The notes below the pieces were generated by a model. It made no database searches, had not been told where the DNA came from, and saw only the letters and a list, made by a program, of their open reading frames with translations. The translations under genes and the position numbers were made by a program. Source: Eubacteriales bacterium (GTDB lineage: Bacteria; Bacillota; Clostridia; Lachnospirales; Lachnospiraceae). Taken from it: a DNA stretch of 64,000 nucleotides. The DNA lies in assembly GCA_030536575.1 (NCBI GenBank), contig JAUNPS010000001.1:202524-266523 (forward strand), read 5' to 3'. Positions within the stretch are counted from its first letter, which is position 1, and every line of letters starts with the position of its first letter. Shown here piece by piece: positions 1,150 to 24,235 of this stretch.

Positions 1150-1255
1150 TGGTTCCTCCATTAAAAAAATTATCTTAGCCTTGCTGCTCAGGCTCCACAA
1201 GGTGTATCCGGCCGCGGCAAGCCAGGCCAGCATCGCCACAGCCTTTCCCGCCGTC

Positions 1256-3400: not shown

Positions 3401-3466
3401 GTTCCGCTTCGCCTCCTGATCCTATGATACTACGGTTTTCCTTTCCAAAACATTTCGAAAGAACTT

Positions 3467-5644: not shown

Positions 5645-5674
5645 CTCTTCCCTCCCGATCCGTATTCTCTGACA

Positions 5675-7443: not shown

Positions 7444-7503
7444 GTTCTCTCCTCCTAAACAAGGAAAAGAGGCTTTAAGCCCCTTTTCCAACATCTCGCA
7501 TGT

Positions 7504-8772: not shown

Positions 8773-8819
8773 TCAAATACCTCCCTTTTGTTTTTATTTA
8801 CGGACAGTTTACTCTTTTT

Positions 8820-8882
8820 GGTGAAAATTTTCTATATGTACATTGTCAAGAACTTGCTCTATATTGACTTTTATTATATAAT
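8820..8882. promoter_or_regulatory. Divergent promoter region of araC and the rhamnoside operon
   Basis: On the plus strand TTGCTC (8854-8859), a 17-base spacer and TATAAT (8877-8882) form a good promoter for the AraC gene. On the minus strand a perfect TTGACA lies at 8849-8844, but I see no good -10 at the right distance. This fits an operon promoter that needs an activator. The two elements overlap, so the AraC protein could control both from one site. No clear operator repeat is visible. Confidence 0.6.
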
Positions 8883-8929
8883 GATGTGAGAAGAAACTGC
8901 CGACCTTTTTCACACAAGAGGGAAACCTT

Positions 8930-9781
8930 ATGAAGCCGATTGTTTTAAATGACTGGGTGACCACGCCGAAAAATCCCCTGCATTCCATCCTTACAAAGGA
9001 TGACGATGTCCTTCCCCATTATCATCTGTTTTATGAGATTTTTTATATTATGGACGGCTCCATCCGCCATACGATAAACGGAAACGAACAAATTCTCCAG
9101 CCAGGCGATATTGTTTTTCTGAATCTTGAAGATTTTCACTGTTTTTATCGGACATCAGAAACTTCCTGCCGCCATCGTGACATTATCATCCGCACCGATT
9201 TTTTTGAATCTGTGTGCGATTTTATCGGGGAAGATTTTAAGCAGGCTTATATGAAGAACCAGCTTTCCAAGGTGATCACCCTGCCCTTTGAACAGATCAA
9301 ACGATATGATGGAATGTTGACGAATATTGCCCTGTCTCTTGACACCAATTCCGCATTCCGCCAGGCAAACATGCGGACCTTCTGCGTCTCTCTTTTAAAC
9401 TGTCTGATCACGGAAGAGATTCAGAATGATTTTGAATATTATCCCGTCTGGTTCAAGGAGCTGCTGAACCGTTTTCACATGAACGATTACCTTCAGGCCA
9501 GTCTTGATCAGATTCTGCAGCCTTTTCATTTCAGCCGCTCCTATATGTGCCGTACCTTCCAGCGCTACATGGGCTGCACCATGACCGACTACCTCAACGA
9601 TATCCGTCTGCAGCAGGCCGCCTACCGCCTGCAGTACACCGACGACACCATCCTGTCCATCTGCTGTGCGGTGGGGATTTCCTCCATCTCCTACTTTAAC
9701 CGGATTTTCAAAGAAAAGTACGGCGTATCGCCCCGCGTCTTCCGCCAACGCCGGGAAATACCGGGCGGCAGTCCGAATTAA
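8930..9781 (+). CDS. AraC-family transcriptional regulator with cupin sensor domain
   Basis: This is a 283-residue regulator: an N-terminal cupin-type sugar-binding domain (histidines in LPHYHLFYEIFYI near residue 30) and a C-terminal double helix-turn-helix of the AraC type from about residue 180 (FSRSYMCRTFQRYMG and the YFNRIFKEKYGVSPRVFRQ end). It is divergently transcribed from the sugar operon 157 bases away, the standard position for its activator. GAGGG precedes the ATG. It is probably a cytoplasmic DNA-binding activator responding to rhamnose or a rhamnoside. Confidence 0.9.
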   Translation: MKPIVLNDWVTTPKNPLHSILTKDDDVLPHYHLFYEIFYIMDGSIRHTINGNEQILQPGDIVFLNLEDFHCFYRTSETSCRHRDIIIRTDFFESVCDFIGEDFKQAYMKNQLSKVITLPFEQIKRYDGMLTNIALSLDTNSAFRQANMRTFCVSLLNCLITEEIQNDFEYYPVWFKELLNRFHMNDYLQASLDQILQPFHFSRSYMCRTFQRYMGCTMTDYLNDIRLQQAAYRLQYTDDTILSICCAVGISSISYFNRIFKEKYGVSPRVFRQRREIPGGSPN

Positions 9782-9816
9782 GAAATAAACGTGACATGCG
9801 CCGTATCAGGTGCACC

Positions 9817-9846
9817 AAAAAAGGGCTGCCCTCACCAGACAGCCCC
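9817..9846 (-). terminator. Rho-independent terminator of the ten-gene peptide/fucosidase operon
   Basis: On the minus strand the arms GGGCTG and CAGCCC (9845-9840 and 9828-9823) enclose an 11-base loop and are followed by six T. It lies 60 bases after the stop of the transglutaminase-like gene. On the plus strand the hairpin is followed only by CTCTCTT, so it would stop the AraC transcript poorly. Confidence 0.75.
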
Positions 9847-9906
9847 TCTCTTACGTAACGCGGACATTCCTATTCCGCTTCGCTGCATATTCATGAACGC
9901 GAACCG

Positions 9907-12417
9907 CTACGCGTTCAAAATCCTTAAAACCATATCTCCGGTTCCCACATTATACCCGCTGGTTCCATACAGCGCCGTCACTCCGCTCTCCCGCCTCTCC
10001 GCAACCAAAATCAGCGGCAGCCTCCCCGGCTCCGTATAAACCCTCCGCGCCAGCACCTCCATCTCCCCACCAAAATCATGGAAAAACACAGGCACTCCCG
10101 GCAGCGCCTTCCGGCACTTCACAAGCGTCGGGTCCTCCAACGCCTTCCGGTTTTGCACAATCAGGGCAATGCGGTTCTCAAAGATTCCGAATTCTTCTTT
10201 TCGCTCGATCAGCTCATTTAAAATATGCTCCGTCGGCTCCTTGCTCTCTTCCAGCCAGATAAAGAGCGTCTTCCCGCCTTCCGCCAGCTCGGAAGCCTTC
10301 CGCACCTGCCCGCTGGCATCCGTAAGCCCGAAGTCCGGAAGGGCAATGTGGCTCAGAATATCCGACAGCTTCGCATCCCGGAACGCCATCCGAATCTCCT
10401 TTGTCTCCCCTGCGCGGACACAGAAATCCAGCCGTTTTCCAAACTGATTTCCATTCGGCAGACGGTTCGCCGTCAGGAGCCGATACGTTCCCGGCACCAG
10501 CCGAAGCGTCAGCTTTCCGTCTTCCCAGATCTTGCCGTCCAGCTTCAACGTCTCATACGCGCCTCCTCGCAGCCGCGCCAGCGTCCAGTTCTGGAAATAT
10601 TTCCAGACCGTTTTCGCCCCATCTTCCAGCAGGATCAGCCCGGCATCCGCCCGCTCTTCCGGCAGAACCGGAACGAACGCCCCGTCCCGCCAGTATTCCA
10701 TCGCGCCGCTTTCCGGATGCAGTCTGGACGGAATCCCAAGTGTCCGCGCAATGGCTACGAACAGCACTTTTTTAGACGCCTCGCTGGCCACACCCAGCCG
10801 CAGGGCTGCCGCCGGAGTGGTAAACAGGCTGCTCCGTTCTCTGTCCGGATGCTCCCTGACACGCTTCTGCACCACGTCCCAAATCTTCTCCGGTTCCGCC
10901 CGGAACGCCTCTTTCTCTTCCTCGGAAAAGGCCTCCGAGATCGCCTTTCTCCAGGGCGTCAGCACTTCGTTCGAAATCCTGGGGTTCAGGATGTAATTCA
11001 GGTACAGGTCTTCCGGAAACTGTCCGGCATAGGCGGACGCTTCGTGAAAATGTTCTTCCAGAACTGCCGCTTTCAGGTCGATCTGGTCTTTCTCGGACAG
11101 GCATTTCAGGAGCTTCGCACGCAGTCCCACGGTCGCGATATCCCCATAGAAGAAATCTTCCCGCTCCTTATTCCAGAAATGCCGCGCCTTCTGGAGCCGC
11201 TTTCCGGTCACTTTCGCGAGCTTCCGGTCGAACTGCTTCTGCTCCTCTGCGGTCAGCTTCCGTCCTGGGCGAATATGGTCTTCCGGTGCGAACATATCAA
11301 AATCTGTCCACGCCTCTGCCAGGGAAACCGCCTCCCGCAGCACAACCCCGCACACCCGCTCCTTCCGCGTATCCATCAGCCCTTCCGCCCTCATCCCATC
11401 CTTCCTCACATCCACATGAAGGCTTCCCAGGCCCGTCTCCATCCTCACCTTTCCTTCCTCATCCGTCCGCATGACAGCCACCGGCGCAAACTCCGCATAA
11501 TTCAGCACCTGAAACTCCACGACCGCGCCCTTCACCGCCGCCCCGCTCTCATTCGTCACCCGCACTTCCGCTTCCACCGTCTCCGCATAGCGCCCAAGCT
11601 GATTCAGCATCGTCACCATGCCCTCTTTTCCCACGGCCTTCTCTGCGGATGCCGGAATCGCGTCAAACCATCGGGAATGCACCATCATTGCCCGCGACGA
11701 CGCCCCGTTAAACCACCCGTGGTTCAGCTCCGGACTGGGCTCGCACGCCCCCAGGAACTTCCATTCCCCCTCGATCCAGACCTCCACCCACGCATGATTA
11801 TCATCGCAATGCGACCACTTCGGCGCATAAACCTGCCTCGCCGGAATCCCCACACTCCGCATCGCATTGACCGTAAAAACCGACTCCTCCCCGCAGCGCC
11901 CATGGCCGCTGGCAAACACCGTCCTCGCCGAAGCCGTCCGGTCATCCGACGCCTGATAAGTCGCCTCCCTGGCGCACCAGAAATTCACCTCCCAGGCGAT
12001 CGCCTCCTCCGGCCGCTCCGTCAGCCAGTCTTCCGACCGAATCTCACCCGTGACCCAGCCATCCCGGCCATACGCCTGCAAACTTTCGTAAAAAAGCGTC
12101 CTGCATGTATCGATTTCTTCCTCATTCACCCGGTGATACAGAACATAATTCAAAAAAACTTCCTCCGGAAGCTTCCGGACATGCTCATACTTCTCCCACA
12201 GCATCACGCTGTGAGCCGCGTAATCCAGAAAGACGGAAAACGGATAATTTCCCAGATCGCTGCACGGCATCGTCGTATAAAGATACTTCATGGCCAGCGC
12301 CGTATCCTCCGGGCAATGCGAAATCTCCTCCGCAATCGGCTCCAGAATCCCCGGCTGATGCCTAAGAAGCATGGCAAACGCTTCCTCAATGCGCGCTCTG
12401 CTGTTCTCTAAAAACAT
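9907..12417 (-). CDS. Transglutaminase/PNGase-like protein with degenerate second copy and thioredoxin-like tail
   Basis: This is an 836-residue cytoplasmic protein. Residues about 80-235 form a transglutaminase-like cysteine hydrolase domain: Cys175 in GRCGEES, His208 in DNHAWVEVW, and an acidic residue Glu226 in ACEPSP. The pattern resembles peptide:N-glycanases. A beta domain follows (about 280-345). Residues about 465-590 repeat the first domain: LPEEVFLNYVLYHR at 83-96 recurs as FPEDLYLNYILNPR at 467-480, and SVGIPAR recurs as TLGIPSR, but the Cys block became GVASEAS. The last 150 residues look like a thioredoxin fold (LPDFGLTDASG) without CxxC. No signal peptide is present. GGAGGAG precedes the ATG, and the gene overlaps the CutC gene by 10 bases. 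Its reaction is not known to me; deglycosylation or cleavage of glycopeptides is inference from context. Confidence 0.85.
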   Translation of the reverse strand: MFLENSRARIEEAFAMLLRHQPGILEPIAEEISHCPEDTALAMKYLYTTMPCSDLGNYPFSVFLDYAAHSVMLWEKYEHVRKLPEEVFLNYVLYHRVNEEEIDTCRTLFYESLQAYGRDGWVTGEIRSEDWLTERPEEAIAWEVNFWCAREATYQASDDRTASARTVFASGHGRCGEESVFTVNAMRSVGIPARQVYAPKWSHCDDNHAWVEVWIEGEWKFLGACEPSPELNHGWFNGASSRAMMVHSRWFDAIPASAEKAVGKEGMVTMLNQLGRYAETVEAEVRVTNESGAAVKGAVVEFQVLNYAEFAPVAVMRTDEEGKVRMETGLGSLHVDVRKDGMRAEGLMDTRKERVCGVVLREAVSLAEAWTDFDMFAPEDHIRPGRKLTAEEQKQFDRKLAKVTGKRLQKARHFWNKEREDFFYGDIATVGLRAKLLKCLSEKDQIDLKAAVLEEHFHEASAYAGQFPEDLYLNYILNPRISNEVLTPWRKAISEAFSEEEKEAFRAEPEKIWDVVQKRVREHPDRERSSLFTTPAAALRLGVASEASKKVLFVAIARTLGIPSRLHPESGAMEYWRDGAFVPVLPEERADAGLILLEDGAKTVWKYFQNWTLARLRGGAYETLKLDGKIWEDGKLTLRLVPGTYRLLTANRLPNGNQFGKRLDFCVRAGETKEIRMAFRDAKLSDILSHIALPDFGLTDASGQVRKASELAEGGKTLFIWLEESKEPTEHILNELIERKEEFGIFENRIALIVQNRKALEDPTLVKCRKALPGVPVFFHDFGGEMEVLARRVYTEPGRLPLILVAERRESGVTALYGTSGYNVGTGDMVLRILNA

Positions 12418-13199
12418 GCCTTCTCCTCCGCCAGCCGGTTCAATACTTCCCGCGCTTCCCGCACTTTCTCCTCCGCCGTCCGCCAGATCTCAAACTCGCT
12501 GATAAACGGCAGACCCATATTCACGCCGTCCTTCCGGTACTCCATCACGCTGTCCAGCGTCTCCTTCCCGGACATGTGGAACACATGGGCGCCGGTATAC
12601 GGCCCGATTTCCCGGATCGCCTCCGCATCCACGCCGCTGCCGACCATGATCTCCAGATCATTGCCCGCCTTCTCCACCAGTTCCTTTAACAGCTCCCGGC
12701 CCGCCAGACAACTGTTCTTCTGCCCCGACGTCAGGATCGTGCGGATTCCCAGCTCCTTCGCCTGCTCCAGAGCCTCAAAGGGGTCACGGCAGACGTCAAA
12801 GGCCCGGTGAAGCGTCACGGACATCCCGTCCGCTTCCTCCATCAGAATCCGCATCTGTTCCAGATTCAGGCTTCCGTCCGGCTTCAGGATGCCGATCACG
12901 ACCCCCTCCGCCCCCAGCTCCCGGAACATTTTCACATCCCTGCGGATAATCTGGAACTCATGTTCCGTATAGCAGAAATCTCCGAATCTGGGACGGATCA
13001 ATGCATGAATCCGAATATCCGAATACCGGCGGATCTCCTGAAACAGCCCCGGGCTGGGCGTCGTCCCGCCGATAATCAGGTTCCCGCAGAGCTCCAGCCT
13101 GGAAGCTCCTCCTTTCGCCGCCGCAAGCGCAGATTCCACCGAATCCACGCAGGACTCCAAAATATATTCTCTCAAAGCGATCTTCCCTTTCTTCTGCAT
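12408..13199 (-). CDS. cutC: CutC family TIM-barrel protein
   Basis: This is a member of the CutC family (PF03932), historically linked to copper homeostasis but with no firmly assigned reaction that I know. Family blocks are clear: ESCVDSVESALAA near the start, GASRLELCGNL, GGTTPSPGL, IRPRFGDFCYTEHE, VTLHRAFDVC and ILTSGQ. It overlaps the aminopeptidase gene. The ATG at 13199 has no ribosome site. A TTG at 13175, whose last bases overlap the upstream stop as TTGA, would match the usual family start better and indicates translational coupling. Its place among peptide and fucose genes suggests a role in glycan or glycopeptide catabolism rather than copper handling. That is inference. Confidence 0.9.
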   Translation of the reverse strand: MQKKGKIALREYILESCVDSVESALAAAKGGASRLELCGNLIIGGTTPSPGLFQEIRRYSDIRIHALIRPRFGDFCYTEHEFQIIRRDVKMFRELGAEGVVIGILKPDGSLNLEQMRILMEEADGMSVTLHRAFDVCRDPFEALEQAKELGIRTILTSGQKNSCLAGRELLKELVEKAGNDLEIMVGSGVDAEAIREIGPYTGAHVFHMSGKETLDSVMEYRKDGVNMGLPFISEFEIWRTAEEKVREAREVLNRLAEEKACF

Positions 13200-14470
13200 A
13201 AATAATACATACTTGTCACGCCCGCTCCGGTCGCGCCCTTTGCCTGGAATTCATAGATCGGCTTCTCCACCCATGACGTCCCTGCAATATCCAGATGAAT
13301 CCAGGGCCTCCCTGCGGCAAACTTCCGAATAAACAGCCCCGCTGTGATCGTTCCGGCAAATTTCCCGCCGGAATTTTTCATGTCTGCGACCTCGCTCTCA
13401 ATCATTTTCTCATACTCCGGATAGATCGGCAGCCGCAGATAACGTTCCCCGGAGAGCCCAATTCCCTCCAGGAATTCCTCATAAAAAGCTTCTCCCTCGG
13501 CCAGGCACGGCGCTGCTCCAAAGGCTGTGATACCCACCGCCGCCCCGGTCAGGGTTGCAATGTCCACTACCTGGGACACACTTTCGGTTCGGACGGCATA
13601 GGCAACCGCATCGCCCAGCATCAGCCGTCCCTCCGCATCCGTATTTACAATCTGAATCGTCTGCCCGTCGTAAGCCGTAATCACATCCCCCGGCAGATAC
13701 GAACCTGGGGAAATCCGGTTCTCGCACATAGGAATCAGCCCGGTCACATTGACCTTCACACCATTCGCCGCCAGTGCGTAGATCGCTCCGGCCACAGCGG
13801 CCCCTCCGGCCATATCGCCGCGGATTCCCATCATAGAACCGGCATTTTTCAGGCAGTAGCCGCCCGTATCGCAGGTCACGCCTTTCCCTACAAGGCCCGT
13901 AATTTCCTTAGTATCCGGGTTTCCCCGATAGCGCAGAATCGCCAGGCAGGGAGGATAGGCGCTGCTGTCCCCCACGGCCAGCATGGCGTTCATCCCAAGC
14001 TCCGCCAGCCGCTCCCGGCTCAAAATTTCCACTTCTACCGGAACCTGCTCCACAAGCTCGGCCACCTTTCCGGCAAAGTCCAGCGGACGGAGCATATTTC
14101 CCGGCATATTCGTCATATTTCTGGCAAATACAATTCCTTTCACAACGTGTTCGGTTTCCCGAATCACTTCTTTTGCTTCTTCATTGCCACGCAATCCAAT
14201 CAGCTCCACCACCGTTTCCGGCTCCTCGCTTTGCTTTTTCGAATATTTCGCGGGCTTATACAGGGCCAAAAGGATACCCTCCGCCGCATCTCTAAGACAA
14301 TCCGTTCCCTTTAACGCAATCCAGTTCGAAAGGTCCAGTGCAAAGCTGCCGCCCTTCCATTCCTTTACTGCCTTGGCAAATACCTCCTTCACCGCAATTC
14401 TGTCCATTTTTTCCGTCGGTTCCGGGCAGGTAAGTACCGGAAGCATACTCGTCTCCACGATTCTCAGCAT
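13172..14470 (-). CDS. pepA: M17 family leucyl aminopeptidase
   Basis: This is a cytosolic dizinc/dimanganese aminopeptidase that removes N-terminal residues from peptides, 432 residues. The metal-binding and catalytic blocks are plain: GKGVTCDTGG, GIRGDMAGGAAV and NTDAEGRLMLGD, followed by VDIATLTGA. The N-terminal regulatory half is shorter than in E. coli PepA. AAAGGA precedes the ATG. It lies 31 bases behind the DeoR gene and is coupled to CutC. In an operon with a peptide importer it most simply degrades the imported peptide. Confidence 0.95.
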   Translation of the reverse strand: MLRIVETSMLPVLTCPEPTEKMDRIAVKEVFAKAVKEWKGGSFALDLSNWIALKGTDCLRDAAEGILLALYKPAKYSKKQSEEPETVVELIGLRGNEEAKEVIRETEHVVKGIVFARNMTNMPGNMLRPLDFAGKVAELVEQVPVEVEILSRERLAELGMNAMLAVGDSSAYPPCLAILRYRGNPDTKEITGLVGKGVTCDTGGYCLKNAGSMMGIRGDMAGGAAVAGAIYALAANGVKVNVTGLIPMCENRISPGSYLPGDVITAYDGQTIQIVNTDAEGRLMLGDAVAYAVRTESVSQVVDIATLTGAAVGITAFGAAPCLAEGEAFYEEFLEGIGLSGERYLRLPIYPEYEKMIESEVADMKNSGGKFAGTITAGLFIRKFAAGRPWIHLDIAGTSWVEKPIYEFQAKGATGAGVTSMYYLCRRKGRSL

Positions 14471-14501
14471 GATGACAAATCCTTTCTAATGTTTTCGCAG
14501 A

Positions 14502-15263
14502 TTATATCAGCCGGACTCCCGCGCTCTCCAGCGCCTGCATCGTCGCCGGGTCCGGCTCCTTATCCGTAATAATTCCATTTATATCATCAAAATGCGCAAA
14601 TTTGTAGGAATCATTAAAATAAAACTTATCCCTTTCCATGACAATGTATTTGTGGCGGCTGCTTCCCAGCGCAGCCTTTTTCGTCAGCCCGTCCTCCACC
14701 CCCAGGGTCGTGATGGCGCTGTCCATCATATCAATGCCCGTCGTCCCCAGGAATGCGCGGTCAAAGCTGTATTGCTTAATCACTTCGATGGTGGCGGCCC
14801 CCATAAAACCATTTACGGTGCGGTACATGATTCCTCCCGTACCGATGGCGGTAATCATGGAGCTTTTTGCCAGCGCCTGTAAGATGTCGATCATGTTGCT
14901 GACAACGACCACTTTCCGTTTCTCCTTAACCAGAAGCTCGGCAATCCGGATGTTTGTGGTGGAAATATCCAGGAAAATCGTCTCGTTATCCTTGATAATG
15001 TCGGCGGCTTTCCGGGCAATGATCTCTTTCTTATCCACATTCACCTTCCGGCGGTCGATCACATCCCGCTCCAGCGGATAATCCTGGGACAGGATCGCCC
15101 CGCCGTAGGTGCGTTTTAACCTCCCCGCATTCTCCAGCGCCTTTAAATCTTTCCGGATACAGTCCTCCGTCACCTGGAATTTCTCGCTTAAATCCTTGAC
15201 CTTGACCTTTCCTTCCTGATTCAGCTTCAGGATAATGGCTTCCCAACGTTCTTCTGTAAACAT
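14502..15263 (-). CDS. DeoR-family transcriptional regulator
   Basis: This is a 253-residue sugar-catabolism regulator. The N-terminal DeoR helix-turn-helix occupies about residues 1-55 (VKVKDLSEKFQVTEDCIRKD). A DeoRC phosphosugar-sensing domain follows (NETIFLDISTTNIRIAELL, VVVVSNMIDI, DRAFLGTTGIDM). The start ATG at 15263 is preceded by GGTGGGGG; a GTG at 15275 is less likely. It is encoded inside the operon, 22 bases behind the fucosidase gene, so it probably represses its own operon until a phosphorylated sugar such as fuculose-phosphate appears. The ligand is a guess. Confidence 0.93.
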   Translation of the reverse strand: MFTEERWEAIILKLNQEGKVKVKDLSEKFQVTEDCIRKDLKALENAGRLKRTYGGAILSQDYPLERDVIDRRKVNVDKKEIIARKAADIIKDNETIFLDISTTNIRIAELLVKEKRKVVVVSNMIDILQALAKSSMITAIGTGGIMYRTVNGFMGAATIEVIKQYSFDRAFLGTTGIDMMDSAITTLGVEDGLTKKAALGSSRHKYIVMERDKFYFNDSYKFAHFDDINGIITDKEPDPATMQALESAGVRLI

Positions 15264-15285
15264 AAAATCCCCCACCGCCTTCGCT

Positions 15286-16596
15286 TTACCGTTCTTTCAG
15301 GGTCACTTCCAGCACCGTATCCACCGGATCAGGCAGAATCGGGTCCGGCCCCAGATCGGCGAACACGATATCCGGGTAATCGCTGTGCACCCAGCTCGTA
15401 GAAATGGGCACCTCCGCACCGGTGGCCAGATAGCGGATGCTCTCCACTTCCTCTTTTTTCAGGCCCGGAAGTGGCATCGGGCCGATGGTATTTTCATACA
15501 GATGATAATAAAGCTTGTTTCCTTTCGCGGTGATCCGGCCCATATCCGGCTTCGCGATCCCGGCCTTTCCGCAGCCGTAAATGCTGTCGCTGTTTTCCTT
15601 CATCCAGCGGCCGATCTCAGCCAGGCGCTCCAGGGATTCTTTCGGAATGTTTCCTCTGGCATCCGGGCCCACATTCAGGATCATGTTTCCGCCCTTTGAG
15701 ACGCATTCCACCAGCTTTTTGATCAGCATCGGCGCGGGCTTCCAGAAATGATCCTTGGCGCAGTAACCCCAGTTTCCATTCATGGTCACGCAGGATTCCC
15801 AGATCATATCGTTCCCATTGACGTCCTTAATTCCTTCGGGCGGAATCATCTGTTCCGGGGTGACGAAATCCCCGTGGTAGGGCGTCGGGTTTCCGGTGGC
15901 CAGGGAGCCGTAGCCTTCGCCGCTGGCTTCCAGACGGTTGTCAATGATGACGTCCGGCTGGAGGGTACGGACCATGTTCACCAGCTCTGTGGCGCGCCAT
16001 TTTTCCCCGCGCATATCGTCGTAGGAGAAGTCGAACCAGAGCAGGTCGAGCTTTCCGTAGTTCGTGCAGATTTCCCGGATCTGGTTCAGCATGTAGTCCA
16101 GGTAACGGTCGAAATTGCGCTTGTCATTCTTTTCGTTTTCGTTATTCCGCATGGGATGGTTCCGGTCGCCGTAGTGGGGGTAATCCTCGTGATACCAGTC
16201 CAGAAGCGTGAAATACAGGCCCACCTTCAGCCCTTCCGCCCGGACGGCCTCCACGAATTCCTTTACCAGGTCGCGGCCGATCTTTGTATTCGTCACTTTA
16301 TAGTCCGTATACTGGCTGTCAAACAGGCAGAAACCGTCGTGATGCTTGGCGGTCATGACAACGTATTTCATACCGGCTTCCCTTGCGGCTCTCGCCCAGG
16401 CCCGCGGGTCATAGTCCACTGGATTGAACTCCTCAAAGTATTTCCTGTAATCCTCTTTCGGCATTTCTTCAAAGCTTCGCACCCATTCGCCTCTGGCCGG
16501 AATGGCATACAGGCCGAAATGGATGAACATCCCGAACCGGGCCTGGGTAAACCAGGCGGTGCGGCGTTCGTATTCTTCTCTGTTAAATGTGTACAT
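15286..16596 (-). CDS. GH29 alpha-L-fucosidase (cytoplasmic)
   Basis: This is a retaining alpha-L-fucosidase of family GH29, 436 residues. GMFIHFGLYAIPARGEW, the TAKHHDGFCLFDS block and LDLLWFDFSY, which carries the nucleophile Asp, identify the family. The C-terminal end carries only a short beta domain. I chose ATG 16596 because GGAGGTAAACAGCGT precedes it; an 18-residue longer start lacks a ribosome site. No signal peptide is present. It stands between the ABC ATPase genes and the DeoR gene of a peptide-type importer, which is unusual and points to fucosylated cargo. It is only distantly similar to the second GH29 at 50-51 kb. Confidence 0.93.
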   Translation of the reverse strand: MYTFNREEYERRTAWFTQARFGMFIHFGLYAIPARGEWVRSFEEMPKEDYRKYFEEFNPVDYDPRAWARAAREAGMKYVVMTAKHHDGFCLFDSQYTDYKVTNTKIGRDLVKEFVEAVRAEGLKVGLYFTLLDWYHEDYPHYGDRNHPMRNNENEKNDKRNFDRYLDYMLNQIREICTNYGKLDLLWFDFSYDDMRGEKWRATELVNMVRTLQPDVIIDNRLEASGEGYGSLATGNPTPYHGDFVTPEQMIPPEGIKDVNGNDMIWESCVTMNGNWGYCAKDHFWKPAPMLIKKLVECVSKGGNMILNVGPDARGNIPKESLERLAEIGRWMKENSDSIYGCGKAGIAKPDMGRITAKGNKLYYHLYENTIGPMPLPGLKKEEVESIRYLATGAEVPISTSWVHSDYPDIVFADLGPDPILPDPVDTVLEVTLKER

Positions 16597-16692
16597 ACGC
16601 TGTTTACCTCCATTTTCTTTGATCGTCTGTGCGTCCGGGTTCAGAACCAAATCCCATGCCCCGTCTCGAACTTCGCCGGGCTTATCCCGCGC

Positions 16693-17664
16693 CTAAAATT
16701 TTTCTGCGTAGTGGCATTTCACCACATGGTCTTTTCCAACGGTCCGGAATTCCGGCCGCTCCGCTTTGCATTTATCCGTGCAGTGCGGACATCTGGTGTG
16801 GAACAGGCATCCCTTTGGCGGATTCACCGGGCTGGGAAGATCCCCTTTCAGGGTAATGCGGTTCTTCTCATGGGTCGGGTCCGGGATCGGCACCGCGGAC
16901 AGCAGCGCCTGGGTGTAAGGATGCCGCGGATTCTGATACAGTTCCGCTTTCGGGGCAGTCTCCACGATGGTTCCCAGATACATGACTCCAATGCGGTCGG
17001 AGATCATTTCCACAACGCTTAAATCGTGGGAAATGAACAAATACGTCAGGTTATATTCCTCCTGAAGATCCTGCATCAGGTTCAGAACCTGGGCCTGAAT
17101 CGACACATCCAGCGCCGATACCGGCTCGTCGGCAATGATCAGCTTCGGGTTTACGGTCAGGGCGCGGGCGATTCCCACACGCTGAAGCTGGCCGCCCGAA
17201 AACTCATGGGGATACCGCTCCCCGTGCATCGGGTTCAGCCCAACGACGCCTAACAGCTCATGAACCTTCTTCAGCCGCTCCCCGGCGCTCATATTCGTAT
17301 GAATCAAAAGCGGTTCCGCAATCTGATCCTGGATCTTGATCCTGGGATTCAGCGCGCCGTAGGGGTCCTGGAAGATCATCTGAATGTCTTTTCTGAGCGG
17401 ACGCATCTGTTTCTCATTATATTTCGAAATGTCCGTTCCGTCAAACCAAACTTCACCGGAATCCGGAACCAGGATGTGGTTGATCAGACGGCCCGTGGTG
17501 GACTTGCCGCAGCCGGACTCACCCACCAGCGAAAAGGTCTCGCCGGCCTGAATGTCAAAGGACACGTCGTTGACTGCGTGGACATACTTTTTCTCGGAAA
17601 ACATTCCTTTGTTTACCTGGAAGGTTTTCACCGCATGTTTTACGGATACTAACGGCTTACTCAT
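16693..17664 (-). CDS. Oligopeptide/dipeptide ABC transporter ATPase, OppF/DppF type
   Basis: This is a cytoplasmic ATPase subunit, 323 residues from ATG 17664. That start follows GGGGGAG, and its ATGA overlap with the OppD stop shows coupling. Walker A is [12 protein letters not shown], the ABC signature is [14 protein letters not shown] and Walker B is LIIADEP. The C-terminal oligopeptide extension has the cysteine cluster seen in this class ([15 protein letters not shown]), often linked to an iron-sulphur site. A longer frame upstream overlaps OppD and is not real coding. It pairs with the OppD-type ATPase. Confidence 0.95.
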
Positions 17665-18662
17665 GCCTGCTCTCCCCCTTCTTTTGCTCGATTGAATACG
17701 TGGCAGCGGATTTTCCGTGTGGTGGAACCCGGCAGGTACTGCAGTTTCGGCTCCTCCTGACGGCATTTTTCCGTGGCATATTTACAGCGGGGCGCGAACT
17801 TGCAGCCCTTCGGCATCACAGAGAGATCCGGCACGCTGCCCGGAATGGCCGGAAGCTTCTTCACACCGCTTCCGATCTTCGGCACCGAAGCGATCAGGCC
17901 GTTGGTGTACGGGTGGATCGGGTCGGCAAACAGCTCTTTCACCGGGGCTTCTTCCACAATGCGCCCGGCGTACATGACAATGACACGGGAGCACATTTCC
18001 GCCACAACGCCCAGGTCATGGGTGATCAGCAGGATCCCGCTGTTGCGCTCCTCTTTAATCTGAAGCATCAGCTCCAGGATCTGGGCCTGAATGGTCACGT
18101 CCAGCGCCGTGGTGGGCTCGTCGGCAATCATCAGATCCGGTTCGCAGGATAAGGCCATGGCAATCATTACACGCTGGCTCATACCGCCGGAAAGCTGATG
18201 GGGGTAGCTGCGCAGGGTAGTGTCCGGATCAGGGATTCCTACGGATTTTAAAACGTCGTAGGCTCTTTTGTGGGCCTGTTCTTTGGAAAATTTATTGTGC
18301 AGGAGGATTGCTTCCGTAATCTGGCGCTCCACGCGCATACACGGGTTTAAAGAGCTCATCGGGTTCTGGAAGATCATGGACATTTTCCGGCCCCGGATGG
18401 AACGCATCTCCTTTTTCGACAATTTCAGCAGATCCTGCCCGTCTAAGAGGACTTCGCCGTTCGTCACCTTTCCGGAGGTGTCCAGCAGAAGGCCCATGAT
18501 GGAGAGGGAAGTCACGGATTTTCCGCAGCCGGACTCGCCCACAAGGCCCAGCACTTCGCCCTTGTCAATGGAAAATGAGACGTCGTTTACCGCTGTTACC
18601 GTGGATTTTTCACGTTTGAATTCTGTTCGGAGGTTTTTTACCTCTAATAATTTCTCAGCCAT
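17661..18662 (-). CDS. Oligopeptide/dipeptide ABC transporter ATPase, OppD/DppD type
   Basis: This is the second ATPase subunit, 333 residues. Walker A is [11 protein letters not shown], the signature is [15 protein letters not shown] and Walker B is LMIADEP. The C-terminal oligo_HPY region contains [15 protein letters not shown]. It begins 10 bases behind the DppC-type permease gene and its stop overlaps the OppF start. The protein works as a heterodimer with the OppF-type subunit at the membrane. Confidence 0.95.
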
Positions 18663-18672
18663 TTTCTCCCTC

Positions 18673-19578
18673 CTATTTCATCTTCGGATCCAGCGTGTCG
18701 CGCAGGCCGTCGCCCAACAGGTTAAACGCCAGAACGGTCAGGAAAATCAACAGACCCGGAAACAGTACCAGATGCGGGGCTGTGGTCATGTAGTTCCGGC
18801 TCTGGGAAAGCATTGCCCCCCATTCCGGCTCGGTCACGTTCGCGCCAAAGCCCAGGAAGCTCAGAGATGCGGCCGCCAGAATTGCCGTACCAATGCGCAT
18901 GGTAAAGTTTACAATCAGAGACTGTAAGGTGCCTGGGAAAATGTGTACCCAGAGGATCCGCCAGTCTTTACATCCCAGGGAACGGGCTACTTCAATATAA
19001 AGGGATTCTTTTACGGTCAGGGTCGCGCTTCGCGCCAGACGCGCCACGGACGGCACCGTAAAGACGGCCACGGCGATGACGATATTCACCACGCCAGGCC
19101 CGATGATCGCCACAACCGCGATGGCCAGCAGGATATCCGGGAACGAAAACAGGATATCGGAACCTCTCATCACGATGGATTCAATAATTCCGCCGTAATA
19201 ACCGGCCAGCAGTCCTAAGACCGTACCGATGACCGTACCAATGATAACGGATGCCAGCGCAACGGACAAGGATAAGCGGGTTCCCACCAGCAGACGGCTG
19301 AACACGTCGCGTCCGAACTCATCGGTTCCCCACCAGTGTGCGGCGCTGGGGCCCTGCAGCATAGCCGTATAGTCCGGAGCCGCCGGGTCATAGGGTGCAA
19401 TGTACGGCCCGAAAATTGCAACCAGGATCATAAGCACGACAAAGACCAGTGCGATGACCGCCGTTTTTCTCCGCAGAAACTTTTTGACAAATTCTTTTAC
19501 CTTACTCTGGGCTTTGGGGAGCTCTTCCGCTTCGTAGGAGCCTCCCGCCGAAGTGGTCTTTATTTCTTTATCAGCCAT
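18673..19578 (-). CDS. Peptide ABC transporter permease, DppC/OppC type
   Basis: This is an inner-membrane subunit, 301 residues. A cytoplasmic N-terminal tail of about 40 residues precedes the first membrane segment (AVIALVFVVLMILVAIFGPY). The OppC_N domain is followed by the permease core with the EAA-like loop EVARSLGCKDWRILWVHIFP. It sits 12 bases behind the DppB-type gene. Confidence 0.95.
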   Translation of the reverse strand: MADKEIKTTSAGGSYEAEELPKAQSKVKEFVKKFLRRKTAVIALVFVVLMILVAIFGPYIAPYDPAAPDYTAMLQGPSAAHWWGTDEFGRDVFSRLLVGTRLSLSVALASVIIGTVIGTVLGLLAGYYGGIIESIVMRGSDILFSFPDILLAIAVVAIIGPGVVNIVIAVAVFTVPSVARLARSATLTVKESLYIEVARSLGCKDWRILWVHIFPGTLQSLIVNFTMRIGTAILAAASLSFLGFGANVTEPEWGAMLSQSRNYMTTAPHLVLFPGLLIFLTVLAFNLLGDGLRDTLDPKMK

Positions 19579-19590
19579 ATTCTTTCCTCC

Positions 19591-20511
19591 TTAATCATAT
19601 CGTACCTTCGGATTCAGTACGCCGTAGAGCAGGTCTACAATCAGGTTGACAACGATGTATTCGACTGCGAAGAACAGCAGAAGCGCCTGTACCACTTTGT
19701 AATCACGATAGTTGATCGAATCTACCAGGAGCCGCCCAAGGCCCGGAATGGAAAATACGGTTTCCACCAGCACGGAACCGGAAAGCAGGCCGCCGATCTG
19801 AAGGCCGGTCACGGTCACGACCTGAATCAGGGAGTTTTTGAACGCGTGGCGCATGATAACGAAAAATTCGCCCAGGCCTTTCGCACGGGCCGTCCGCACG
19901 TAGTCCTCCCGCATGCTCTCCAGCATGGAAGAACGGGTGAAACGCGCCAGGATCGCCATAGTGCCCGCGCCCAGCGTCAGGGACGGCAGGATGTAACTCT
20001 TCCAGGAATCCAGACCGGAGGTCGGCAGCCAGCCAAGTCCTACGGAAAACCACTGGATCAGCATCAGGCCCAGCCAGAAGCTCGGCACGGAAATACCGGA
20101 AATGGCAATGAGCATGCCAATGTAATCCATAGCTTTGCCTCTACAGACCGCTGAAATAATCCCCAGTGCCACGCCGACAATAGTTGCCCAGATAATGGAA
20201 CAGATCGTCAGCATGATCGTGGGTTTAAAACGCGGGATAATGGTATCCCAGACGGTCGCGCCGTTTTTCAGGGAATTTCCCAGATCTCCGGTAAAGAGGC
20301 CTTTCATATAGTCCACGTACTGGGTCAGCAGCGGTTTGTTCAGGCCGAGCTGTTCCCGGATCACTTCGACTTCTTCTGCGGTGGCGTCCATGCCTGCCTG
20401 CATACGGGCCGGATCGCCGGGGATCAAATGAATATACATGAAAATAAAGAATGATATGGCCAGCAGAAGGGGAATGGCGCTTAAAATTCTTTTAATACAA
20501 TATCGTCCCAT
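19591..20511 (-). CDS. Peptide ABC transporter permease, DppB/OppB type
   Basis: This is an inner-membrane subunit, 306 residues. The start is ATG 20511 with GGAGG seven bases upstream; an 18-residue longer frame to 20565 is not supported. The N-terminus GRYCIKRILSAIPLLLAISF and the region FIMRHAFKNSLIQVVT are typical of the DppB/OppB family. It forms the translocation pore with the DppC-type subunit. Confidence 0.95.
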   Translation of the reverse strand: MGRYCIKRILSAIPLLLAISFFIFMYIHLIPGDPARMQAGMDATAEEVEVIREQLGLNKPLLTQYVDYMKGLFTGDLGNSLKNGATVWDTIIPRFKPTIMLTICSIIWATIVGVALGIISAVCRGKAMDYIGMLIAISGISVPSFWLGLMLIQWFSVGLGWLPTSGLDSWKSYILPSLTLGAGTMAILARFTRSSMLESMREDYVRTARAKGLGEFFVIMRHAFKNSLIQVVTVTGLQIGGLLSGSVLVETVFSIPGLGRLLVDSINYRDYKVVQALLLFFAVEYIVVNLIVDLLYGVLNPKVRYD

Positions 20512-20553
20512 CGTATTCCTCCAATTTTTCTTTCCACAGTGCCGTGTAAGACC

Positions 20554-20591
20554 AAAGGCGGTCACCGCCTTTATCAGGGATGACCGCCTTT
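20554..20591 (-). other. Intercistronic hairpin after the peptide-binding protein gene
   Basis: In the 111-base gap between the binding-protein and DppB-type genes, AAAGGCGG and CCGCCTTT form an 8-bp hairpin with a three-base loop (20554-20572). A further CCGCCTTT copy follows at 20584-20591 and could pair instead. No T run follows, so it is not a terminator. Such hairpins often protect the upstream binding-protein mRNA from decay; that role is inferred. Confidence 0.55.
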
Positions 20592-20622
20592 GCTTTGAAC
20601 GTCTGTCTAATTTATTCTGATG

Positions 20623-22194
20623 TTACTGAGCCAGTACAGCATTCTGATATCTGATCGTTCCGTCCGGAGCTACGTATGCGCCGGAAAGGTAGGTCTTTGT
20701 AGAATAGACGATCTGGTCGGTTCCAAGGAACAGCCAGGTTGCATCGTTCCATGCCAGTTCCTGTGCGGTCTGGTAATACTCTGCTTTCTCTTCTTCGGTC
20801 GCTGCGGCAAGTCCTGCGTCCATGGCGGCGTCAAAATCAGGATTGTTGTAGTATACGGTATTGGCACTGGTGGGCGGGCACATCTCGCTGTAGAGCAGCG
20901 CACGCATGGAGCTGTCTGCGGAGAAGTCGGATGCGGACCAGTTTACATACCACATATCGATTTCTGCATCTTCCAGGGGTACATAGATCTTATCGGAAAC
21001 GGTAGCCGGCTCCATCGGAACGACTTCGACATTGATGCCGATCTGGGAGAGCTGCTGCTGGATAAAGGTCATACCCTTGATTTCCTGGGTGGTGTTGTCA
21101 CCCCAGATGGTGATATCGAATCCGTCTGCATAACCGGCTTCTTCCATCAGGGATTTCGCTTTTTCCAGGTCGAAGGTGTACGGGGTCTGCTCTTCATAAT
21201 ACTGGATAACGGACGGTACGGTAGAGGTAGCCGCTTCGCCGTATCCGCCGTACATCAGGGCAACGTAGGCGTCTTTGTCGATGGCGTAGTTCATAGCCTG
21301 ACGTACACGAACGTCGCTTAAAGCTTCCCGGTTCACGTTCAGGGTTACGTAGCGCATGATGTTCGATACGCTGGTGTTGATCTGAGCGTCTTCGGTGCTC
21401 TCAACAACGGAAAGCTGGTCGGAGGAGGTCGGGTAGATCAGGTCGGCTTCGCCGGTCTGCAGCATAGCGGTACGGGTGCCTGCTTCCGGAACTTCTTTGA
21501 TCGTTACGGAGTCTACGCCGGGTTTTTCTCCCCAGTAGTCATCATTTCTTACCATGGTTACGTGGTCGCCTTCCACCCATTCCTGATAGGTGTACGGGCC
21601 GGTTCCACAGGGATGATACATCACGTCATTGCCATACTCTTCGATGGCTGCCGGGCTGATGAAGCACATCTGGGTCAGCTTGTTTAAGAATACGCCGTAA
21701 GGCTCGCTTAAGGTAAATACGACGGTGTAGTCGTCAGGAGTCTCGATGCTGGCGATTCGCGGGGTTTCTTCGCCGTCTACGGTCTTGAAGTAGGTTCTTC
21801 TGCTCTTCAGGCCATTGTCCGCGTCGAAAACACGCTCGAAGTTCGCTACGACTGCGGCGGAGTTAAAGTCGGTTCCGTCATGGAACTTCACACCTTCGCG
21901 CAGGTGGAAGGTATAGGTCAGGGAGTCTTCGGATACTTCCCAGGACTCTGCCAGAACGCCTTCCAGCTCCTGATTCTCATCGAAGTGGAGCAGTTCTTCG
22001 TACACGCCGCGGGTCGCAGAAATCGCGTTCGTATCGGAAATGTTCTGCGGGTCCATGGAGCTTACGGAGCCTTCGATGGCAATTACCAGGTCGTTATCCG
22101 GGGCGGTAGCGCCTTCTGCGGATGCGGTCAGGCCTGCCATGGAAAGGGTCATGGCTCCGGCCAGTACGAGGGCCAGGATTTTCTTGATTTTCAT
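20623..22194 (-). CDS. Solute-binding protein family 5 (peptide/oligosaccharide)
   Basis: This is the secreted ligand-binding protein of the peptide-type importer, 523 residues. The signal peptide ends near ASA-EG and contains no cysteine, so it lacks the usual lipobox. The family 5 signature is present (REGVKFHDGTDFNSAAVVANFERV, given here in two parts: REGVKFHDG and FNSAAVVANFERV), and the fold continues with WVEGDHVTMVRNDDYWG. It is the first gene of the ten-gene operon. Family 5 proteins bind di- and oligopeptides, nickel or some oligosaccharides. Given the aminopeptidase and fucosidase genes, a fucosylated peptide or a fucosyl oligosaccharide are the two leading ligands. Confidence 0.93.
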   Translation of the reverse strand: MKIKKILALVLAGAMTLSMAGLTASAEGATAPDNDLVIAIEGSVSSMDPQNISDTNAISATRGVYEELLHFDENQELEGVLAESWEVSEDSLTYTFHLREGVKFHDGTDFNSAAVVANFERVFDADNGLKSRRTYFKTVDGEETPRIASIETPDDYTVVFTLSEPYGVFLNKLTQMCFISPAAIEEYGNDVMYHPCGTGPYTYQEWVEGDHVTMVRNDDYWGEKPGVDSVTIKEVPEAGTRTAMLQTGEADLIYPTSSDQLSVVESTEDAQINTSVSNIMRYVTLNVNREALSDVRVRQAMNYAIDKDAYVALMYGGYGEAATSTVPSVIQYYEEQTPYTFDLEKAKSLMEEAGYADGFDITIWGDNTTQEIKGMTFIQQQLSQIGINVEVVPMEPATVSDKIYVPLEDAEIDMWYVNWSASDFSADSSMRALLYSEMCPPTSANTVYYNNPDFDAAMDAGLAAATEEEKAEYYQTAQELAWNDATWLFLGTDQIVYSTKTYLSGAYVAPDGTIRYQNAVLAQ

Positions 22195-22225
22195 AGTCGA
22201 TCTCTCCTTTTTAAATAAATTCTTG

Positions 22226-22250
22226 TTTTTATAGCTTAGGGCTATAAAAA
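22226..22250 (-). other. Inverted repeat in the 5' leader of the peptide/fucosidase operon
   Basis: TTTTTATAGC and GCTATAAAAA are perfect 10-bp arms with a five-base loop, about 30 bases upstream of the binding-protein start and inside the predicted leader. On the transcribed strand no T run follows the stem, so it is not a terminator. It could affect translation or mRNA stability. Confidence 0.5.
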
Positions 22251-22330
22251 AAGCATTCCGAACTGGTACGTTCCGGGTGAACCGCTGACTTTTTTGTGAC
22301 GTCTTCTGCTCCTTTGCATATCAATTTCGA

Positions 22331-22348
22331 AATACTTATTTAAGTGTT
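22331..22348. promoter_or_regulatory. Operator-like palindrome at the operon start point
   Basis: ACTT-ATTT-AAGT with matching flanks forms an imperfect 18-bp palindrome (one mismatched pair). It covers the predicted transcription start of the promoter at 22352-22380. A repressor here would block initiation. The DeoR-family protein encoded in the same operon is the obvious candidate, but no experimental site is known to me. Confidence 0.45.
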
Positions 22349-22351
22349 TTT

Positions 22352-22380
22352 AGTATAGCATGCCTATAGGGGAATGTCAA
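22352..22380 (-). promoter_or_regulatory. Near-consensus sigma-A promoter of the peptide/fucosidase operon
   Basis: On the minus strand TTGACA (22380-22375), a 17-base spacer and TATACT (22357-22352) match the vegetative consensus at 11 of 12 positions. The 60 bases upstream are very A-rich, like an UP element. Predicted start near 22345 gives a leader of about 150 bases. Confidence 0.85.
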
Positions 22381-22441: not shown

Positions 22442-22482
22442 ACAAAATGGGCGCTATGGAAGCCGTTAGGCTTTCATGCGCC
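22442..22482 (-). terminator. Possible terminator overlapping the end of the rRNA methyltransferase gene
   Basis: A bulged hairpin with arms GGCGC...GCGCC and AAGCC...GGCTT includes the stop codon and is followed by ATTTTGT. The stem is strong but the T run is short, so termination may be partial. Confidence 0.45.
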
Positions 22483-24235
22483 ATCCTGAGAGGTATTTGT
22501 TTTTTAAGAGTCCGCCGGTGAGTTTGCCCCAGCCTAAGGGGTAGCCGTTTACGCATACGAGCTGCCAGCCGCGGGGGCGAAAGACCGGGAGGTCGTCGAC
22601 GGTGATGGTTTCGCCTTTTAAATAGCGGAAGACGCGTTCGTCGGTCCAGGAGAAGTTCAGGACAGAGGTGTAATCGGTCTTTTTGAGGGCCATGGCGAAG
22701 GATTGGCTGGGTTCGAAGCGGTCTTTTTTGAGTTCGCCGAGGTAGAGGCCATTGCGGAGGAAGGTGAGGCCGGTAATGCCGTCCAGGTGCTCCGGGAGGT
22801 AGTAGAGCTGGCCTTTGCGGAGGTCGAGGCGGGTGGGGTCGAGGGGCATACGGACGTCGCGGAAAAAGTCGTCCAGGATTGCCTGGTCGGTTGGGGCAAT
22901 GCGGGGGCGTTTGGCAACGGGGCTTCCCGGACGGGTTTCAGGGCTGCGGAAGCGTTTCTGCACTGGGGATTCCTCGCGGCTTTCCGAACCGCGGAACCGC
23001 GTGGCGCCAGGGCCGTCGGCCGACGGGCTTTGCCCTGGTATCCCGCAATTCGTTTTCCGGCTGTCTGGGCAGCCCCTTTGGGCACGGCTCTCGTGCTGGG
23101 CGTCCGGCCCCGTGCGTTCCGGCGTTTCCGGCTGACCCGCTTCGGCACGGCCTTCGTGCTGGGTTTCCGGCCTCGTGTATTCCGGCGTTTCCGGCTGACC
23201 CGCTTCAGCACGGCCTTCGTGCTGGGTTTCCGGCCTCGTGTATTCCGGCATTTCCTGCTGGGCCTGCGCCCCGCTTTGGCCGTCCGCGCCTTCTTTTTTC
23301 AGCAGCGCCAGGAAATGGCCTTCGCCCGGAAGTTTATGCGGCCAGATACGCGCGCACAATTCCAGTTCCTGTATGATACTTCCGTCCTCGCCCATAGCCC
23401 ACTCCGGCCGCCCCGGCGCGAAGAAATCCTTCCGCCCTTTTTCCAGCCCGCCCGTTGGCGTAATCGGGCACAGATGAAACTCCGGGCACATCTCCAGCAG
23501 ATACCGGATCACCTGCTCATTTTCCACCGGCGAAAACGTACAAGTCGAATACAGCAGCATCCCTCCGGGCCGCAGCATCCGCGCCGCCTGCACCACAATC
23601 TCCTTCTGGATTTTCGCACAATTTAACGGCTTCTCCGGCGTCCACGCCTTCGCCACATCCGCATCCTTCCGGAACATCCCTTCCCCGGAACAGGGCGCAT
23701 CCACCAGAATCTTATCGAAAAACCCTTCAAACTGCTCCGCCAGCTTCCCCGGCGTCTCATTCACCAGAAACGAATTCGGGATTCCGAACACCTCAATATT
23801 CTTCTGCAATGCCTTCGCCCTGGAAGCGCTGATATCATTCGCCACCAGAAGCCCCTGCCCTTTCAGCTTCGCCCCAAGCTCCGTCGCCTTCCCGCCGGGA
23901 GCCGCGCACAGATCCAGCACCTTCTCCCCCGGTTCCACCGGAAGCACCGACGCCGGCGTCATCGCGCTGGGTTCCTGCAAATAATACAATCCCGCATAGT
24001 AAAACGCATGCCTGGAAGGCTGGTCTTCCTCTTCATAATAGAAGCCGTTTTCCACCCATGGAATCTGAGTCAGCGTAAACGGCGCCGTCTTTTGAAAGTC
24101 TTCCGCGCTGATCTTCGCCGTATTGACCCGCAGGCCGAAGCGCCTGGGCTCCTGATAGCTCTCCAGGAACGCCTCGTATTCCTCCCCCAGCAGGGTTTTC
24201 ATATTGTCCAAAAATACTTCCGGTAATTTCGTCAT
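22466..24235 (-). CDS. rsmF: RsmF-like 16S rRNA (cytosine-C5) methyltransferase with repeat insertion
   Basis: This is a SAM-dependent m5C RNA methyltransferase of the NOL1/NOP2/Sun family, 589 residues. The SAM site is VLDLCAAPGGKATE near residue 110. The catalytic cysteines are in DAPCSGEGMFRKD and LLYSTCTFSP. The C-terminal part resembles the RsmF extra domains (RGWQLVCVNGYPLGWGK). Between them a roughly 130-residue low-complexity linker holds a 21-residue repeat (PEYTRPETQHEGRAEAGQPE as core) in about 2.6 copies. Normal family members have about 450-480 residues, so the linker is an expansion. It starts five bases behind the FtsX-type gene, whose end carries its GGAG site. Confidence 0.9.
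   Translation of the reverse strand: MTKLPEVFLDNMKTLLGEEYEAFLESYQEPRRFGLRVNTAKISAEDFQKTAPFTLTQIPWVENGFYYEEEDQPSRHAFYYAGLYYLQEPSAMTPASVLPVEPGEKVLDLCAAPGGKATELGAKLKGQGLLVANDISASRAKALQKNIEVFGIPNSFLVNETPGKLAEQFEGFFDKILVDAPCSGEGMFRKDADVAKAWTPEKPLNCAKIQKEIVVQAARMLRPGGMLLYSTCTFSPVENEQVIRYLLEMCPEFHLCPITPTGGLEKGRKDFFAPGRPEWAMGEDGSIIQELELCARIWPHKLPGEGHFLALLKKEGADGQSGAQAQQEMPEYTRPETQHEGRAEAGQPETPEYTRPETQHEGRAEAGQPETPERTGPDAQHESRAQRGCPDSRKTNCGIPGQSPSADGPGATRFRGSESREESPVQKRFRSPETRPGSPVAKRPRIAPTDQAILDDFFRDVRMPLDPTRLDLRKGQLYYLPEHLDGITGLTFLRNGLYLGELKKDRFEPSQSFAMALKKTDYTSVLNFSWTDERVFRYLKGETITVDDLPVFRPRGWQLVCVNGYPLGWGKLTGGLLKNKYLSGWRMKA
23093..23255 (-). repeat. 63-bp tandem repeat inside the rRNA methyltransferase gene
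   Basis: Copies begin at 23093, 23156 and 23219, exactly 63 bases apart; the third is partial. The first copy is more diverged. The period is a multiple of three, so the frame is kept and the encoded 21-residue unit is Glu-, Pro- and Thr-rich. Copy number could vary between strains. Confidence 0.85.

Follow-up and report, generated by a model that had tools for sequence, protein, structure and literature searches.

A candidate glycoasparagine utilization operon pairing CutC with a transglutaminase-fold protein in Lachnospiraceae

Introduction

The closest described counterpart of the locus studied here is alf-2 of Lactobacillus casei, a pathway for fucosyl-α1,6-N-acetylglucosamine-asparagine (Fuc-GlcNAc-Asn) proposed from genetics and enzyme assays. 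According to the available sections of that report (Becerra 2020, PMC6960285), it comprises a major facilitator superfamily (MFS) permease, the M20 peptidase PepV, the PF01112 glycosylasparaginase AsnA2, a ROK kinase, AsdA, and a GntR regulator, and its authors hold that 1-amino-GlcNAc decays without an enzyme, with acid helping. Here we describe a ten-gene operon in a 64,000-nucleotide (nt) stretch, hereafter the window, of a Eubacteriales bacterium (Lachnospiraceae; GenBank assembly GCA_030536575.1, contig JAUNPS010000001.1, forward-strand positions 202,524 to 266,523). The operon encodes an ATP-binding cassette (ABC) importer, a glycoside hydrolase family 29 (GH29) fucosidase, a DeoR regulator, an M17 peptidase, a CutC protein, and an 836-residue transglutaminase (TG)-fold protein that we call TG836. 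The original prediction for this locus, made from the sequence alone, knew of no described pathway with this set; as far as those sections of PMC6960285 describe it, alf-2 does the job proposed below with other protein families.

On balance, we favor reading the operon as a glycoasparagine utilization unit. A dipeptide/oligopeptide-type importer would take up small fucosylated glycopeptides, most likely Fuc-GlcNAc-Asn(-peptide) stubs left by N-glycan cutting by other enzymes. In the cytoplasm, GH29 would strip fucose and the M17 peptidase would trim amino acids. TG836 would then cut the GlcNAc-Asn amide, glycosylasparaginase's job elsewhere, releasing aspartate and 1-amino-GlcNAc. CutC would act on the sugar side just after the amidase, in the simplest case converting 1-amino-GlcNAc to GlcNAc and ammonia; alternatively, it may itself be the amidase or act on a GlcNAc phosphate. 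We infer this placement from mapping the operon stepwise on the alf-2 scheme, which leaves CutC over as a gene and the fate of 1-amino-GlcNAc as a step.

Results

The links established here are genomic: gene content, conservation, co-occurrence, folds, and conserved residues. Clear TG836 proteins were found in 12 of 98 relatives, including the window's own genome (14 matches, two weak ones dropped), and in 10 of the 293 genomes of a class sample (34 matches, 24 short ones dropped). A collection of named genomes holds 12 TG836 loci, including those of Blautia caecimuris, Fusicatenibacter, and three Bacteroidales. The gene order, whose conservation the original prediction had proposed to check, is not unique to this genome. 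All ten genes recur in identical order in L027, and shortened runs lack M17 only (L025, L034), lack M17 with an M28 peptidase at the end (L036), lack both GH29 and M17 (L035), lack both with M28 and another GH29 downstream (L037), or, in another family, lack DeoR and M17 (L049). L023, from the same genus as the window's genome, retains the permeases, ATPases, GH29, CutC, and TG836, without a labeled binding protein, DeoR, or M17. Because the run is conserved in other genomes, it is more than a chance arrangement. The ten genes thus hold up as a conserved unit, though not as a fixed set, with GH29 present often but not always and M17 in few runs; its constant core is CutC, which had been left without a role, and TG836.

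CutC and TG836 also co-occur at the level of genomes. CutC is present in 11 of 12 TG836-bearing relatives versus 13 of the 86 others (Fisher p = 2.3e-7) and, in the class sample, in 5 of 10 TG836 genomes versus 24 of 283 others (p = 0.0012); one of these five (G276) carries the two genes on different contigs. From neighbor counts based on in-house gene calling and similarity labels, CutC directly adjoins TG836 in 16 of 31 loci, one of them from Bacteroidales (L032), and lies within four genes in 18, with three genes between them in L050 and a GH29 gene between them in L053. TG836-partnered CutC proteins fall at several separate places on the CutC tree, read here without regard to support values.

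A second partner of CutC is found in PF01112, a family that mixes glycosylasparaginases with isoaspartyl enzymes. It is present in 3 of 293 class-sample genomes, 4 of 98 relatives, and 15 of 388 phylum-sample genomes, of which 3, 4, and 8, respectively, have CutC, compared to 29, 24, and 39 CutC genomes overall (Fisher p = 8.8e-4, 2.9e-3, and 2.0e-5). In a tree of 23 PF01112 sequences from 22 genomes, 16 genomes form one clade (support 0.975), and CutC is present in 15 of these. Beside it branch G633 and G708, nearer to glycosylasparaginase structures and without CutC, and the remaining four genomes also lack CutC, L146 being nearer to isoaspartyl structures (175 versus 143 bits). By type, 15 of the 18 genomes with a glycosylasparaginase-like PF01112 protein have CutC, and none of the 4 with the other type does (p = 0.0048). 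Restricted to the phylum sample, the comparison gives CutC in 8 of 11 glycosylasparaginase-like genomes versus 31 of 377 others (p = 6.8e-7). The two genes lie at most 5 kb apart in eight genomes (G022, G352, G417, G517, G540, G563, G606, and G748), and for the proteins adjoining CutC in L066 and L093 the best-matching structures are those of true glycosylasparaginases (about 200 and 197 bits versus 133 and 131). The window's genome, which is about 91% complete, has no PF01112 match.

We examined 93 CutC loci, 75 of them without TG836. Within four genes of CutC in these 75, we counted NagA 10 times, ROK proteins (kinase or regulator) 9 times, a phosphotransferase system (PTS) EIIC component 8 times, and glycosylasparaginase 7 times, compared to 0, 2, 0, and 0 at a distance of six to nine genes. 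One or more of these four markers occur in 22 of 75 loci within four genes versus 2 at the greater distance. The NagA label was upheld by the NCBIfam model in three of three cases tested (L073, L105, L108). Peptidases are also found near CutC in these loci (M81 in 3, C69 in 2, M20 in 2, M17 in 1), the M20 protein of L066 being PepV-like. In L121/L134, from a 6.8-Mb genome of another family, an Asparaginase_II protein, a binding protein, permeases, OppDF, M17, CutC, a ROK kinase, and GH29 lie on one strand (L121:6213-17431), and no other called gene matched this asparaginase. In this single case, a third amidase family, unrelated to the other two, would stand where TG836 does, with the outline of the pathway otherwise unchanged. 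That CutC keeps company with TG836 and glycosylasparaginase, and in one case with Asparaginase_II, would fit a role on their common product. Separately, we note that L093, L094, L095, and L098 carry PTS EIIC beside glycosylasparaginase and CutC, and that in L093 IIA and IIB components of the lactose/cellobiose type were confirmed; this is possibly a PTS for GlcNAc-Asn.

TG836 consists of a TG domain with C175 and H208, an Ig-like domain (residues 281-362), and a thioredoxin-like end (688-836) in which we see no CxxC motif by eye; by our own reading of the sequence, it also appears to hold a degenerate second TG-like half. A profile (A1) aligned its signature, GRCGE plus H.W.EV...W...ACE, with that of the peptide:N-glycanase (PNGase) structure 2f4m, a weak match (E = 0.16) that is not significant alone. 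All 29 TG836 relatives keep C175, H208, and the GRCGE residues. Equally constant (29 of 29) is a glycine, G223, which in the same weak match aligns with an aspartate that we take to be the catalytic residue of PNGase. Because glycine holds this position, TG836 is not established as a PNGase, and the earlier description of it as PNGase-like stands for the fold and the Cys/His signature only. We propose that TG836 may be a GlcNAc-Asn amidase and the first of a new amidase family. It could instead be a binding, scaffold, or peptide-processing protein, with CutC or an unlinked asparaginase cutting GlcNAc-Asn; the glycine, the degenerate second half, the thioredoxin-like end, and the presence of CutC without TG836 in L121 would suit such a role. 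We consider this unlikely, as the Cys, His, and GRCGE residues are invariant as in a working active site and a separate amidase appears repeatedly in CutC loci (PF01112 within four genes in 7, PF06089 once).

Two further observations concern the architecture of TG836. The L042 protein (8399-11926) has a long N-terminal extension, and in L132 a separate gene resembling carbohydrate-binding module family 9 (CBM9), at 7809-8996, lies just ahead of TG836 and has a TG836-labeled protein as its best local match. Together these suggest a fusion of neighbors.

The genes around TG836 bear on the choice of substrate. Within eight genes of TG836, we counted GH29 in 19 of 31 loci, with different GH29 proteins and other transporters among them, as well as GH18 in 5, GH38 in 1, M17 in 4, and M28 in 5. 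GH18, M17, GH29, and TG836 are consecutive in L042, whose GH18 protein also has a sub-threshold match to an EndoS barrel model. L046, L047, and L054 have both GH18 and GH29, with GH35 too in L046 and L054; L046 further contains a LacI/GntR-type regulator, CBM9, ABC permeases, and DUF5696. By eye, the five GH18 proteins near TG836 have the DGxDxDWE motif and no signal peptide. The set resembles a toolkit for the protein-proximal part of the glycan, and it comes with differing transporters. Fitting less plainly are a sulfatase (L051), a GlcNAc-2-epimerase-like protein (L052), and cell-envelope or housekeeping genes elsewhere. A DUF5696 protein with ABC permeases near TG836 is found at L046:14081-16639 and again at L053:15073-17742.

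The general idea of the original prediction, import and breakdown of fucosylated glycopeptides, is supported by the importer, fucosidase, peptidase, and amidase-fold protein and by the lack of signal peptides on the enzymes. Its suggestion of mucin as a source fares less well: N-linked stubs would fit better, since TG836 has GH18, GH38, GH35, and GH29 proteins as well as peptidases among its neighbors and CutC goes with glycosylasparaginase. GH29 and the importer do not fix the linkage, and GH35 (L046) and the sulfatase (L051) would also suit an operon for mucin-type (Ser/Thr-linked) or other fucosylated glycopeptides, in which TG836 would be either a peptidase or an amidase that cuts a different bond. 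Given that CutC tracks glycosylasparaginase and NagA, that GH38 and GH18 lie near TG836, and that no GalNAc-specific Pfam family was found among 40 scanned TG836-locus proteins (a chosen part of the neighbors), we regard this as unlikely. A general peptide-scavenging operon with an added fucosidase, its parts not forming one pathway, seems improbable to us: several orthologous runs lack GH29 and M17 and the binding-protein family accepts many ligands, but the recurrence of GH29 near TG836, with different proteins and transporters, argues against it.

The operon's CutC protein matches both the Pfam model (PF03932) and the CutC fold. R69, H131, and H208 are invariant in 92 of 92 CutC sequences. 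The Cys columns, presumably the ligands to be expected in a copper-chaperone CutC, are not conserved (C17, the best, in 68 of 92; C38 in 52; C76 in 42), and the copper effects of E. coli cutC have reportedly been traced to the small RNA MicL. That CutC is a copper-handling protein incidental to the operon, as the family name and an NCBIfam model titled copper homeostasis protein would have it, is highly improbable in view of these residues and of the glycan and peptide genes that make up part of its neighborhoods. Rather, the data suggest that widespread CutC may be an enzyme of a glycoasparagine pathway and not a copper protein. Our broadest hypothesis is tentative and, as a whole, doubtful: that CutC from bacteria to humans hydrolyzes 1-amino-GlcNAc, which glycosylasparaginases and PNGases produce, or the phosphate of this compound, that it is paired here with a new transglutaminase-fold GlcNAc-Asn amidase, and that human CUTC acts downstream of NGLY1. 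In the literature searched, with most subscription papers outside its scope, we found no paper that combines CutC with beta-N-acetylglucosaminyl and asparaginase and, among the matches listed, none that links CutC to glycosylasparaginase; term searches of the available parts of PMC9522356 and PMC10154615 for CutC, transglutaminase, and asparaginase came back empty. A match in the available part of PMC9201481 was false, lying in the reference list only.

For the importer, the predicted families are confirmed, with peptides as putative ligands. The binding protein (GsiB, 396 bits; equivalog cut-off 594) and the permeases (GsiC, 398 versus 463; GsiD, 392 versus 484) are nearest to Gsi/Dpp types and fall below every NCBIfam equivalog cut-off. 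The N terminus of the binding protein resembles a signal peptide but has no lipobox Cys, which also holds for L025, L027, L034, and L035; a lipobox Cys is present in L036, L049, and L121. GH29 has a strong Alpha_L_fucos domain (310.6 bits, cut-off 25.2) and 6gn6 as its nearest solved relative (594 bits, next 229). It stands beside the importer and regulator, as in alf-2 according to the available sections of PMC6960285. The DeoR protein scores 156 bits against the AgaR model, below the cut-off of 260. By eye, GH29, M17, CutC, and TG836 lack signal peptides.

An ORF scan of the window together with Pfam bears out the prediction of ten same-strand genes of named families: ten open reading frames (ORFs) run on the minus strand from 22194 down to 9907 with small intergenic gaps, and all have Pfam matches above cut-off (SBP_bac_5, two BPD_transp_1, two ABC_tran+oligo_HPY, GH29, DeoR, Peptidase_M17, CutC, and Transglut_core; Table 1). 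Four genes probably start later than listed. Comparison with orthologs favors 17664 for OppF, and for GH29 it favors ATG 16596, which has GGAGG ahead and agrees with orthologs beginning MYxF; the first permease probably starts near 20511 (most orthologs have 306 aa) and CutC at TTG 13175 or ATG 13199. Long plus-strand ORFs antisense to operon genes (e.g., 10225-12411) are probably artifacts.

Table 1. Features of the operon in window coordinates
Feature	Position	Strand	Evidence
Promoter-like site TTGACA-17-TATACT, TG ahead of -10	22352..22380	-	11/12 matches; only listed site in gap upstream of first gene
Leader, ~150 nt, hairpins and U-run	22195..22345	-	Folding versus shuffles, z -2.35
Solute-binding protein, SBP_bac_5	20623..22194	-	Pfam; NCBIfam GsiB; best structure match 1uqw YliB
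Permease, GsiC/DppB-like	19591..20565	-	Pfam; NCBIfam; orthologs
Permease, GsiD/DppC-like	18673..19578	-	Pfam; NCBIfam
OppD/DppD-type ATPase	17661..18662	-	Pfam; NCBIfam
OppF/DppF-type ATPase	16693..17664	-	Pfam; orthologs; longest ORF start 17766
GH29 alpha-L-fucosidase	15286..16596	-	Pfam; structure match 6gn6
DeoR-family regulator	14502..15275	-	Pfam; NCBIfam AgaR model
M17 leucyl-aminopeptidase-type peptidase	13172..14470	-	Pfam; NCBIfam
CutC family protein (TIM barrel)	12408..13199	-	Pfam; CutC fold
TG836	9907..12417	-	Pfam Transglut_core; profile alignments
Terminator-like short hairpin with T-run	9821..9833	-	Pattern scan

The single promoter and terminator predicted for the operon are present as sites, but the window has about as many such sites as chance would give (promoter-like, 12 versus 9.1 expected, sd 3.0; terminator-like, 19 versus 14.7, sd 3.7), and a second promoter-like site, also 11/12, lies within OppF at 17444. 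The leader is a possible attenuator; an Rfam scan of it gave no match.

Upstream on the same strand, across the gap with the promoter-like site, are an RsmF-type methyltransferase and an FtsX-type permease; the methyltransferase (22466-24235) contains an interdomain insert in which a unit of about 21 residues (PEYTRPETQHEGRAEAGQPET) is repeated almost perfectly. Downstream, in opposite orientation, is a gene named by eye as an AraC-type regulator (8930-9781). Beside it, a second glycan cluster (1-8772, minus strand) encodes GH1, two alpha-L-rhamnosidase-type proteins, and a family 1 binding protein, with two intervening ORFs that may be permeases. A fluoride riboswitch (RF01734, 44.4 bits) lies at 63826-63898 on the minus strand.

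Discussion

We have read the substrates, every enzymatic step, the amidase role of TG836, and the CutC reaction from genomic context, and besides the glycine at the PNGase aspartate position, several observations weigh against a glycoasparagine pathway. We know of no enzyme activity for TG836, CutC, or the operon importer. The ten genes include no sugar kinase and no NagA, and as a source of stubs the host genome offered only two GH18 proteins, one with a LysM-like start, and no GH85. CutC is uncalled in 13 of 31 TG836 loci, some of which end at contig ends, and the association tests ignore relatedness. Three glycosylasparaginase-like genomes lack CutC (G633, G708, G751), none of the four markers is found in 53 of the 75 CutC loci without TG836, and in the phylum sample 29 of the 39 genomes with CutC have neither PF01112 nor TG836. 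Two TG836 genomes, G066 and G001 (of the same genus as the window's genome), also have glycosylasparaginase-type genes, so the two amidases are not mutually exclusive. CutC, found in E. coli, Caulobacter vibrioides, and Lactococcus lactis among 14 control genomes, is more widespread than either amidase; therefore, further amidases exist or its substrate is broader.

If the proposed pathway is correct, gut Lachnospiraceae would gain a glycoprotein-stub route in which four protein families, those of the transporter, peptidase, amidase, and regulator, differ from the route described in Lactobacillus. The long-standing puzzle of CutC function would also come down to one simple enzyme assay, and the answer might bear on NGLY1 biology in humans.

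Among known systems, the operon importer has all five subunit families in common with the Gsi (glutathione) and Dpp/Opp importers, its binding protein and permeases falling under the equivalog cut-offs. TG836 shares the transglutaminase fold, the catalytic Cys/His, and the GRCGE signature with the PNGase Png1/NGLY1 (2f4m), which has a catalytic Asp where TG836 aligns Gly; TG836 adds the Ig-like, second TG-like, and thioredoxin-like parts. Also among the closest systems is 3e8v, a fragment of a possible transglutaminase-family protein from Bacteroides fragilis. The CutC family, including the E. coli protein and human CUTC, is named for copper, whereas its context here is glycopeptide breakdown. 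In the available sections of PMC6960285, alf-2 shares with the operon an importer, a GH29 fucosidase, a cytoplasmic peptidase, a GlcNAc-Asn-splitting amidase (putative in the operon), and a regulator of its own. The operon instead has an ABC importer, M17, a transglutaminase-fold protein, and DeoR. The alf-2 genes listed there include a ROK sugar kinase, absent from the operon's ten genes, and a PF01112 glycosylasparaginase, unmatched in the window's genome (about 91% complete), and do not include CutC, which stands at the core of the operon described here.

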